In this document: piece by piece, positions 15,047-17,936 of the stretch | How the letters are laid out: every line of letters begins with the position of its first letter | How positions within the stretch are numbered: position 1 is the first letter of the stretch | NCBI RefSeq assembly: GCF_030718995.1 | Contig: NZ_CP132204.1 | Coordinates: forward strand, 3,224,001-3,288,000 | Length of the DNA: 64,000 bases | Source of the DNA: Arthrobacter oryzae | Lineage (GTDB): Bacteria; Actinomycetota; Actinomycetes; Actinomycetales; Micrococcaceae | Direction: 5' to 3' | The notes under the pieces: generated by a model | What the model was told of the DNA's origin: nothing | The model's database searches: none | What the model saw: only the letters and a program-made list of their open reading frames with translations | Program-made: the position numbers and the translations under genes

Positions 15047-16378
15047 ATGAGTCCCGTCATTCTTTTTATCCTCGGTGTCGTCTTTGTGGCGATCGGCATC
15101 GCCGTCTCCATCGCGCTGCATGAAGTGGGCCACCTCGTTCCGGCCAAGCTGTTCAAGGTTCGCGTCACCAAATACATGATCGGTTTCGGTCCCACGCTCT
15201 GGTCCAAGCGCAAGGGGGAGACCGAGTACGGCGTCAAGGCCATCCCGCTGGGCGGCTACGTGTCCATGATCGGCATGTACCCCCCGAACAAGGACGACGG
15301 CACCGTGCGTCCCTCCAGCACCGGCATGTTCCAGACCCTCGCCACCGAGGCGCGTTCCATGGCGCACGAGGAAGTGGGACCCGGCGATGAGAAGCGGGTC
15401 TTCTACCGGCTGCCGGTGTGGAAGAAGATCATCGTGATGCTGGGCGGTCCCGTCATGAACCTGCTGATCGGCGTCGCCCTGACGGCGGTTCTGCTGATGG
15501 GGTTCGGGATCAGTACCCCCACCACCACCATTGCGGATGTTTCCAAATGCCAGGTCAAGGCAGGGGAGACAGTAGATCCGGATTCCGCGGACTGCAAGCT
15601 CACGCCCGCGGCCGCGGCACAACTCAAGCCCAACGACACCATTACCTCCTTCGACGGCAAGGCCGTGACCAGCTGGGAGGAACTCACCGGCTGGATCCGT
15701 GCGTCCGCGGGCCGGGAAGTCAGCATCACCGTGGAACGGGACGGCATGCCCGTCACCACCACCGTGACCCCCGTGCTCTCCGCGCGGCCGGTCATCGGCG
15801 CCGACGGCCGCCAGGCCACCGATTCCACCGGAACCCTCCAGTACCAGGAAGTCGGCTTCCTGGGCATCGGTGCCCAGACCGCCCTGGTGCCCCAGCCGGC
15901 GTCGTCCGTCCTGCCCATGGCCGGGGAAAACATCCAGCAGGTTGCCGGCGTCGTCCTGAATCTCCCCGCGCGGGTGGTGGGAGTGGCGAAGGCGGCCTTC
16001 AGCGAGGAGCCCCGCGATCCGAACGGACCCATCAGCGTGGTGGGTGTGGGCCGCGTGGCGGGTGAAGTTGCCGCCATGGAGGAAGTTCCGCTGCAGTCCA
16101 GGCTCGCCGCACTGGTGGGACTGCTGGCCGGACTGAACTTCGCGCTTGCGGTGTTCAACCTGGTTCCGCTGCTGCCGCTGGACGGCGGCCACGTGGCCGG
16201 CGCGCTGTATGAGGGAGCCCGACGGCGGCTGGCCAAGTTGTTCGGCCGCCCCGACCCCGGAGCGTTCGACCTCGCCAAGCTCCTGCCGGTGACCTACGTG
16301 GTGGCGGCGCTACTGATGGGCATGAGTGCGCTGCTGATCTACGCGGACATCGTCAAACCGGTCAATCTCTTTGGTTAA
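15047..16378 (+). CDS. rip: Site-2 intramembrane zinc metalloprotease (Rip/RseP family)
   Basis: A 443-residue membrane protease. The first membrane helix carries the zinc motif HEVGH, followed by KYMIGFGPTLWS and IPLGGYVSM. A PDZ domain occupies roughly residues 190-270 (NDTITSFDGKAVTSWEELTG), and the second active-site motif LPLDGGHV lies in a late helix. Relatives cleave anti-sigma factors within the membrane. It lies 18 bp after dxr, an arrangement shared with mycobacterial dxr-rip1. Confidence 0.95.
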   Translation: MSPVILFILGVVFVAIGIAVSIALHEVGHLVPAKLFKVRVTKYMIGFGPTLWSKRKGETEYGVKAIPLGGYVSMIGMYPPNKDDGTVRPSSTGMFQTLATEARSMAHEEVGPGDEKRVFYRLPVWKKIIVMLGGPVMNLLIGVALTAVLLMGFGISTPTTTIADVSKCQVKAGETVDPDSADCKLTPAAAAQLKPNDTITSFDGKAVTSWEELTGWIRASAGREVSITVERDGMPVTTTVTPVLSARPVIGADGRQATDSTGTLQYQEVGFLGIGAQTALVPQPASSVLPMAGENIQQVAGVVLNLPARVVGVAKAAFSEEPRDPNGPISVVGVGRVAGEVAAMEEVPLQSRLAALVGLLAGLNFALAVFNLVPLLPLDGGHVAGALYEGARRRLAKLFGRPDPGAFDLAKLLPVTYVVAALLMGMSALLIYADIVKPVNLFG

Positions 16379-16394
16379 TCACCTCTTTCTGGCT

Positions 16395-16455
16395 TATTTT
16401 GATTAATCAGCCGAAAATGATTGATCTAGCATCATCAGCCAATTATGTTTGACTT
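16395..16455 (+). promoter_or_regulatory. AT-rich promoter with palindromic operator upstream of the satD-like gene
   Basis: This short stretch is far more AT-rich than its surroundings. It contains the perfect palindrome TGATTAATCA at 16400-16409 and a -10-like TAGCAT at 16427-16432. The palindrome sits at about the -35 position, which would suit a repressor or autoregulation by the HTH of the following protein. Confidence 0.55.
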
Positions 16456-17130
16456 ATGTATGTACTGACCATCGACCAGAAGGGCAGCACGGGAGACACG
16501 GACCGCGTACCCGGGCTCCTGGCCCGGCTGCACCGGATGTCCACCGCCGGCCGGTTCGAACGCTCCGTGGGCGACGAAGTCCAGGGTGTCGTGGAAAAGC
16601 CGGCGGAAGTCGTGGAAATCGCCCTTCACAGCCTGCGCAGCGGCCAGTGGTACGTGGGAATCGGCGTGGGCGCCGTGGACCTGCCGTTGCCGGCGAGCCC
16701 GCGGGAAGGGTCCGGGGCCGCCTTCGTCGCTGCCCGCCTGGCCGTTGAAAAAGCCAAGGCCGCTGCCGCCCATGTGCCTCTGTCCGTGGTTTCTGGCGGG
16801 CTGCGCCGCGGCAGTGCGGCGCCGCCCGAAGCCGGACCCGGCATCGCGGCCTGCGCGAACGCCGAGGCTGTCCTCCGCCTCATCGGCCGGCTGGTGCAGG
16901 ACCGCACGGAGGCCCAATGGAAAGTGGTGGACGCCCTCCGTGAGCTCCAGCAGGACGCATCAGCCAGGCACGGCACCCAGAAGCTTGCGGCCGAACAACT
17001 TGGAATCACCGAGCAGTCGGTGAGCCGCGCCGTCCTGAGGTCCGGTTGGCAGGAAGAATGGGCGGCAAGGCCGGCCGCCGAGGTGCTCCTGGCACTGGCC
17101 CATGACGCAGTCCTGGAAGGACACAGGTGA
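16456..17130 (+). CDS. SatD-family-like protein: cyclase-like palm domain plus helix-turn-helix
   Basis: A 224-residue protein. The N-terminal half has, in order, an Asp in VLTIDQKGST (D7), a GD pair in RSVGDEVQG (D40), a YVGIGVGAVD strand (about 66-75) and GSGAAFVAARL (about 85-95). This order matches the metal-Asp, GD, RIGIHTG-like and G..VN.AARL elements of class III nucleotide cyclases and is also how I recall SatD-family proteins. Residues 160-190 form a helix-turn-helix (LAAEQLGITEQSVSRAVLRSGW). SatD was named from a Streptococcus acid-tolerance locus and its biochemistry is not established to my knowledge. The stop overlaps the next gene (GTGA), so the two are coupled. The family call is moderately sure; the cyclase-like fold is my inference. 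Confidence 0.7.
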   Translation: MYVLTIDQKGSTGDTDRVPGLLARLHRMSTAGRFERSVGDEVQGVVEKPAEVVEIALHSLRSGQWYVGIGVGAVDLPLPASPREGSGAAFVAARLAVEKAKAAAAHVPLSVVSGGLRRGSAAPPEAGPGIAACANAEAVLRLIGRLVQDRTEAQWKVVDALRELQQDASARHGTQKLAAEQLGITEQSVSRAVLRSGWQEEWAARPAAEVLLALAHDAVLEGHR

Positions 17131-17600
17131 ACGCTCTCTGGATTACGCTCGCCCTGCTGACGGCAGGCTTCGCTGGCTGGCCCGTCACGGCGCTGGTGTT
17201 CCGGCTGGCCCGGACCATCGACGACAAAGCTGACGCGGCCAAGGCGGCCGAGGACCGGGCCGCCGGGGAGTCCGCGGACGAGCCCGCTGCCGATGTCACG
17301 GTGGACAAGGCCGGCGCTGGAAACGCGCCCACACCCGCAGCCGCTACGCCCGCACCCGCCACGCGGATCCTTCGCGGCGGGGCCATCATCGGCGTGCTCG
17401 AAAGGCTGGCGGTGTGCCTGGCAATCCTGGGGGGCCAGCCCGTGGCCATCGCCTACGTGGTGGCTATCAAGGGCCTGGGGCGCTTCGCCGAACTGAAGGA
17501 GACCCCTGTTGCCGCCGAAAGGTTCATCATCGGTACGCTGGCATCCATGCTTTGGGCCGCCGGAGTAGCGGCCCTCGCCAAGATCCTCTTCCTCAGCTGA
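17127..17600 (+). CDS. Membrane protein, partner of the SatD-like protein (DUF3307-like C-terminus)
   Basis: A 157-residue protein. One membrane helix at the N-terminus (residues 3-23) is followed by an acidic Ala/Pro-rich linker (about 35-75) and two hydrophobic segments in the last 80 residues. The C-terminal pattern GVLERLAVCLAILGGQPVAI, then KGLGRFAELKE and ERFIIGTLASML, resembles the C-terminus of DUF3307 proteins, which I recall as neighbours of SatD in other phyla. GTG start overlaps the SatD-like stop. No function is assigned; a membrane-bound partner or sensor for the SatD-like protein is inferred. Confidence 0.6.
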   Translation: MNALWITLALLTAGFAGWPVTALVFRLARTIDDKADAAKAAEDRAAGESADEPAADVTVDKAGAGNAPTPAAATPAPATRILRGGAIIGVLERLAVCLAILGGQPVAIAYVVAIKGLGRFAELKETPVAAERFIIGTLASMLWAAGVAALAKILFLS

Positions 17601-17642: not shown

Positions 17643-17936
17643 ATGACTGTTTTTGCTGTTGAGTACGTATACGCCGCCGAGTCCACCGAAGCACGCAACG
17701 CCGCCCGCCCGGCACACCGGGAATGGACCGCCCGCCTTGCCGGTGAAGGTGCGCTCCTGGCCAGCGGACCTTACGGCGACGGAGCCGGTGCACTGCTCAT
17801 CTTCAAGGCCGCCGACGAAAACGCGCTGAACGGAATCCTCAAGCTGGATCCTTTCGCTGCCGCCAACGTTATCGCGGGCACACGCACCACGGAATGGAAC
17901 CCGGTGACCGGCCTCCTGGCCGACCACGCCGCTTAG
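17643..17936 (+). CDS. YciI-like family protein
   Basis: A 97-residue single-domain protein of the YciI/YCII superfamily. It shows FAVEYVY at the start, ARPAHREWTARLAGEGALLASGPYGDG in the middle with the conserved His and Asp region, and KAADENALNGILKLDPF before the C-terminus. YciI proteins are dimeric ferredoxin-like folds and some are dehydrochlorinase-like or sensor domains; the substrate here is unknown. It has its own promoter and separates the satD-like pair from ispG. Confidence 0.85.
   Translation: MTVFAVEYVYAAESTEARNAARPAHREWTARLAGEGALLASGPYGDGAGALLIFKAADENALNGILKLDPFAAANVIAGTRTTEWNPVTGLLADHAA

Follow-up and report, generated by a model that had tools for sequence, protein, structure and literature searches.

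The rip–ispG interval of Arthrobacter oryzae contains two overlapping genes, one for a protein in which cyclase-like motifs precede a helix-turn-helix and one for a membrane protein, and the question raised by this locus is what such a pair does. SatD and DUF3307, the families to which these proteins were compared, are annotated names without a function. A common logic is now proposed for them: a regulator with a cyclase fold that binds metal and very likely acts on no operon but its own, and that in bacteria and archaea alike is coupled with a membrane module. The reading favored here, to which we assign a probability of roughly 0.6, is that the pair is a self-contained, autoregulated signaling module in which a metal-nucleotide cyclase-fold switch is combined with a membrane module. 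All coordinates refer to the window, the whole stretch of 64,000 nucleotides that was analyzed (NZ_CP132204.1, positions 3,224,001 to 3,288,000).

Organization of the locus

The open reading frames for 224 and 157 residues described in an earlier note, which was made from the sequence alone, were both present and overlapped by GTGA at positions 17127-17130. Also found where that note had placed them were D7 in TIDQKGST, D40 in RSVGDEVQG, the strand YVGIGVGAVD (in full, WYVGIGVGAVD), the segment GSGAAFVAARL and the C-terminal helix-turn-helix. A 4-nt overlap of the two genes was noted in most near relatives. The pair had been described as inserted between rip and ispG; this order is conserved, but a YCII-domain gene also precedes ispG. 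The full order rip-satD-partner-YCII-ispG was found in 76 of 80 named loci of the Arthrobacter type, the exceptions being three loci on contigs that end early and one (L125) in which ispG was not matched. Features of the locus are listed in Table 1.

Table 1. Coordinates of genes, motifs and regulatory elements in the window.
Feature	Position	Strand	Remark
rip (membrane protease gene), 5' of the pair	15047-16378
Upstream inverted repeat GGCTTATTTTGATTAATCAGCC	16391-16412		contains TGATTAATCA (16400-16409)
Central palindrome ATCAGCC-N6-GATTGAT	16406-16425		putative dimer operator overlapping the -35 element
Downstream inverted repeat GATTGATCTAGCATCATCAGCC	16419-16440		over the -35 element and spacer
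-35 element TTGATC	16421-16426	+	-35 to -30 from ATG; alignment of 70 non-redundant upstream regions
-10 element TATGTT	16444-16449	+	-12 to -7 from ATG; 70 upstream regions
SatD-family-like protein, 224 aa	16456-17130	+	predicted minimal class III cyclase-fold domain, then C-terminal helix-turn-helix
Asp7 codon	16474-16476	+	first putative metal-binding aspartate
Gly39-Asp40-Glu41-Val42-Gln43 (GDEVQ) codons	16570-16584	+	second putative metal-binding motif
Arg94 codon	16735-16737	+	class III transition-state arginine position, inferred from spacing in PMC4174876
Helix-turn-helix, residues about 174-196	16975-17043	+	recognition helix EQSVSRAVLRSG
Membrane partner, 157 aa	17127-17600	+	N-terminal transmembrane segment, variable linker, conserved C-terminal membrane module
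Conserved C-terminal module (LRGGxIIGxLER ... KGLGRxxEL ... ERFIIGT)	17370-17546	+	common to SatD-linked DUF3307 proteins

The YCII-domain gene, at 17643-17936, is conserved and sits between the pair and ispG. At two loci (L012 and L124), the SatD-like gene and its partner are both intact although some 1.5 kb of unrelated sequence lies between them. A typical Arthrobacter-type rip-satD order was also noted on a contig titled Acidobacteria bacterium isolate G2_11 (L122), which is probably a mis-binned actinobacterial contig.

Relationship to the SatD family

A single-sequence Pfam scan of the 224-residue protein returned only weak helix-turn-helix matches, with no SatD (PF16264) match at E ≤ 10 and the gathering cut-off of 29 bits not reached. 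The SatD model had no match in the whole host genome, and NCBIfam and PHROGs scans yielded nothing useful. Against 246 actinobacterial genomes, the SatD model identified 15 loci over the cut-off. A bridge between the two groups was provided by L064, from the same order as the host, which encodes a plain relative of the window protein that is nevertheless over the Pfam SatD cut-off. When a profile of 23 window-protein relatives (including L064) was compared by hhalign with a profile of 13 Pfam-level SatD proteins, the match had a probability of 99.8% and an E value of 9.7e-29 over 190 columns. On the strength of this comparison, assignment of the window protein as a divergent member of the SatD family is well supported. 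The likeness extends over the whole length of the proteins, with D, GDE-Q, GxGxG, G..(F/W).AAR and the helix-turn-helix in the same order, while the window protein differs in being too divergent for the Pfam threshold from one sequence and its gene in lying outside any ffh operon. The family takes its name from the sat (secretion and acid tolerance) operon of Streptococcus mutans (PMC12077213, PMC10326533).

Predicted fold

The resemblance to class III cyclases proposed earlier from the order of motifs was borne out by profile and structure comparisons. A profile of 13 SatD proteins, from which the window protein was left out, had the catalytic domain of the M. tuberculosis adenylyl cyclase Rv1900c (1ybt) as its first match among all PDB sequences (E 2e-4), with the D...GD motifs aligned. 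An AlphaFold2 model based on the window protein and 45 homologues (pLDDT 92.7, pTM 0.89) gave mycobacterial class III adenylyl cyclases at all of Foldseek ranks 1-8 with probabilities of 0.99-1.00, the matches being modest in E value (8e-3) and TM-score (0.33/0.43). Nucleotidyl cyclases were also on top in VIA-align of the model (Z up to 9.8) with GGDEF domains close behind (Z up to 8.9), the window motif VGDEV being one Gly short of GG(D/E)EF. Since the sequence profile and the predicted fold both lead to class III cyclases, the two results agree independently, and the predicted class III nucleotidyl-cyclase palm fold of the 224-residue protein is well supported. Cas10 and other CRISPR palms and mCpol were absent from the best 50 Foldseek matches listed, which is no evidence against kinship.

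Compared with the class III adenylyl cyclases Rv1900c (1YBT/1YBU), Rv1264 and Ma1120, the window protein has in common the fold, the two metal aspartates and an Arg at the transition-state position but differs in its shorter domain, in replacement of Lys by Arg and of Asn by Phe, Trp or Tyr, and in the extra C-terminal helix-turn-helix. DUF2652, to which class III cyclases have been extended (PMC4886424), was considered as the family of the window protein and rejected as a different family; PMC4886424 does not mention SatD.

Putative active site

Residues were assigned to the positions of Arg36, Phe90 and Arg94 by the residue spacing of Rv1625c, for which the metal aspartates Asp256 and Asp300 as well as Lys296, Asp365, Asn372 and Arg376 have been described (PMC4174876). 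Among partner-linked proteins, D7 and S11 were identical in all 172 with the column aligned and G39, D40 and E41 in all 173; Q43 was nearly invariant, and R94 was kept in 172 of 174. Thus, D7 and D40, the residues on which the earlier note had staked its cyclase-like reading, are both conserved over the SatD family and invariant in every partner-linked homologue checked. This invariance of the metal residues is well supported, and metal-nucleotide binding by the window protein is likely. At the site of the base-selecting Lys, which lies four residues ahead of the second Asp, the window protein has Arg36 (Arg in 147/174, the rest mixed), and at that of the transition-state Asn it has Phe90 (Phe, Trp or Tyr in 168/174 partnered proteins). 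Because both of these residues are replaced, canonical cAMP synthesis is not predicted, and some other chemistry is possible.

Promoter and putative operator

In an alignment at ATG of 70 non-redundant upstream regions, the consensus was TTGATT for the -35 element and TAnGGT for the -10 element, the corresponding elements of the window being separated by a 17-bp spacer. These elements are spaced exactly as required for transcription to begin at the A of the ATG, so that a leaderless transcript is predicted for the pair. The TAGCAT proposed earlier as a -10 element was not conserved in position among the 70 regions, and TATGTT takes its place. The perfect palindrome TGATTAATCA noted earlier in the gap before the pair is present; however, it was dismissed as the operator because it is not conserved as such; what the orthologues share are inverted repeats of greater length (16391-16412, 16406-16425 and 16419-16440). 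This predicted leaderless promoter overlain by inverted repeats is new in the present analysis.

In searches of the 4.65-Mb genome, the sole perfect match to ATCARYC-N6-GRYTGAT was the central palindrome and the sole perfect match to GRYTGAT-N8-ATCARYC was the downstream repeat; the latter pattern with at most one mismatch occurred at two sites upstream of the satD-like gene of the pair and at one site elsewhere. The type of repeat also changed with the recognition helix. At least two CTTCA motifs (CTTCA/TGAAG pairs) were present in 9 of 10 promoters of proteins with SAVSQR-type helices, none of which had TTGAT pairs, whereas TTGAT pairs were present in 57 and CTTCA in 3 of 115 promoters of proteins with QAVSK-type helices (Q(A/S)VS(K/R)); shuffled sequences gave 0.6-3.4%. 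The core of the N6 palindrome was found in 44 of the latter 115 promoters, compared with 0.04 expected. As there is a single perfect central site in the genome and the repeat type tracks the recognition helix, regulation by the protein is very likely limited to its own operon, in line with the earlier suggestion that it might bind its own promoter. The assignments of promoter and operator are both well supported by these comparisons. We infer repression because the repeats overlap the -35 element and spacer.

Membrane partner

No part of the pair is better conserved than the C-terminal membrane module of the partner. Comparison by hhalign of this module with the C-terminal part of membrane proteins encoded after true SatD genes gave a match of 98.8% (E 1e-16, 74 columns), and the module was present in proteins of L058 and L061 and in the Fusobacterium protein. 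The C-terminus of the partner had been called DUF3307-like, which is correct insofar as the module (G..IG..ER..K(G/S)..R..E..GT) matches that of SatD-adjacent DUF3307 (PF11750) proteins; however, the partner had no match to any Pfam family at E ≤ 10 and hence contains no DUF3307 domain. In those SatD-linked membrane proteins that have it, the Pfam domain lies in the N-terminal half, the part absent from the window partner. Moreover, most of the DUF3307 proteins found in the phylum are without a SatD neighbor: among 12 genomes with DUF3307, such neighbors were found in the two that also encode SatD. In view of the N-terminal location of DUF3307 and the general lack of SatD next to it, the conserved partner is the C-terminal module and not DUF3307 as such. 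By positive-inside reasoning, the segment KGLGRxxELKxxPxxAERF should lie on the cytoplasmic side of the membrane. The structure model of the partner had a pTM of 0.65, and nothing significant was found with it by Foldseek.

Occurrence of the pair

Of 149 genomes in the host family (Micrococcaceae), 145 encode a homologue, as do 179 of 248 in the host order (Actinomycetales). The adjacency of SatD and DUF3307 expected in the earlier note recurred in actinobacteria, in a fusobacterium and in haloarchaea. Thus, among the 15 SatD loci that passed the Pfam cut-off in other actinobacteria, 10 adjoin a gene for the C-terminal module, a fusobacterial locus (L334) contains SatD and the module as a pair, and two haloarchaeal plasmids carry genes for an annotated SatD family protein and DUF3307 with a 4-nt overlap. 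An Arthrobacter plasmid also carries the pair. From their occurrence in these three groups, the pairing, which is well supported, spans bacteria and archaea, and the two-gene module is old, widespread and uncharacterized. Intact-motif SatD genes with no partner detected in the genome were noted at L226, L053 and L065 and in one genus with L051, L052 and L054.

At the actinobacterial locus L065, about 700 bp separate two types of SatD gene, a Pfam-like and a window-like one, and no partner was detected in the genome.

Partner-less paralogues

The host genome contains a second SatD-like gene, near serS (L031:5289-5888, minus strand), which is without a partner and in which TINQ and SVEDE replace TIDQ and SVGDE, i.e., N7 and EDE in place of D7 and GDE. 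Following removal of identical sequences, 258 distinct sequences remained. The motif was intact in 173 with a partner and in 8 without, and degenerate in 75 without a partner and in 2 with one. The last two are artefacts, one from a clipped alignment (L111) and the other from L172, where a degenerate copy stands in tandem with an intact gene. At L273 and L296, a convergent partner lies next door. As independent evidence, the Fisher test of this table (p 6e-53) is meaningless, for the tree yielded just three independent pairs of motif loss versus partner loss (sign test p 0.5). The contrast amounts to approximately one ancient duplication and therefore describes that lineage without proving coupling. 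Within the partner-less lineage, D7 has drifted to N, T or K and G39 to E, A, S or P.

Proposed mechanism and alternatives

In the mechanism proposed, the first protein would combine a helix-turn-helix with a minimal class III cyclase-fold domain whose metal site is formed by two aspartates, D7 and D40. As a dimer, this protein would bind the inverted repeats over its own leaderless promoter and repress its own operon only. The co-translated membrane protein would contribute the module conserved from bacteria to archaea, with its charged segment predicted to be cytoplasmic. A signal would pass between the two proteins by way of a nucleotide that the cyclase-fold domain binds together with metal and may also synthesize, such that the state of the membrane and nucleotide occupancy would set expression of the operon and activity of the partner. 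If this scheme is right, the protein should bind or make a nucleotide and recognize a defined operator, and its mRNA should be leaderless.

Whether the cyclase-fold domain acts as an enzyme divides the principal alternatives. A non-enzymatic, one-component regulator, in which this domain would only bind a metal-nucleotide while the partner either tethers and releases the regulator or is a transporter set by it, is a real possibility, at somewhat less than even odds. Such a regulator is consistent with the replaced catalytic residues, the operator at its own promoter only and translational coupling by GTGA, although invariance of D7, S11, G39, D40 and E41 in partnered copies exceeds the usual demand of ligand binding. 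The same invariance, which extends nearly without exception to the arginine, favors together with the cyclase fold and the loss of metal residues from the partner-less lineage a second-messenger pair in which the first protein would make a cyclic or linear nucleotide, the membrane partner would be its receptor or effector and the helix-turn-helix would add autoregulation. The arrangement itself is proven in Panoptes (mCpol and 2TM-beta), where a tiny palm enzyme and a membrane protein can be a complete signaling unit (PMC12657230). By analogy only, the window pair likewise has the gene of a small palm-fold protein, possibly an enzyme, beside that of a membrane protein, but no sequence relation between the systems was detected (no Pfam match), the membrane protein is different, a helix-turn-helix with its own operator is added, and the pair is in the core genome with no evidence of defence. 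Replacement of the transition-state Asn and base-selecting Lys also argues against a second-messenger pair, as does the constant position of the pair in the core genome, between rip and ispG, a setting unlike that of a defence island. Membership in a known defence family and a phage or mobile origin were each considered and set aside: the pair matched no family in PADLOC (2023), a release that predates Panoptes, no phage match was found and two scans of viral contigs were without a relative. Altogether, a second-messenger pair appears rather unlikely, and the more specific proposal that SatD proteins are active nucleotidyl transferases making an undescribed second messenger sensed by the adjacent membrane module, with the helix-turn-helix holding the dose of the pair constant, is a degree more doubtful. 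If true, however, that proposal would mean a new and ancient two-protein signaling or guard system in bacteria and archaea.

An accessory role in membrane stress or secretion, as the name SatD implies and with the cyclase fold as a relic, is improbable. Such a role is in keeping with the position of the pair after rip and with the link of the S. mutans sat operon, with ffh, to acid tolerance (as cited in PMC12077213), but the title of a work cited there ascribes the acid phenotype to Ffh, not SatD. Moreover, the metal residues of a relic should drift, and drift was seen only in the partner-less paralogues. That the two genes are chance neighbors with unrelated roles can hardly be entertained: a few intact SatD genes are indeed without a partner, but this view is strongly contradicted by the recurrence of coupled pairs, often with the 4-nt overlap, in actinobacteria, a fusobacterium and haloarchaea. 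Neither the fold assignment of SatD nor its pairing with a membrane partner was described in the literature searched, most subscription journals being outside that search.

Tandem copies and paralogue promoters

Tandem SatD-like genes were noted at L154, L172 and L179, where a degenerate copy directly precedes an intact gene and its partner. By analogy with class III cyclases, the products of these tandem copies might form a heterodimer. The promoter of the serS-side paralogue in the host (L031:5289-5888) is without the operator of the pair. At four other loci (L178, L183, L187 and L188), palindromes of the form ATCAACC-N6-GGTTGAT occur about 40 bp before the start of partner-less paralogues, and the half-sites that these palindromes share with the promoter of the pair suggest operator cross-talk or common ancestry.
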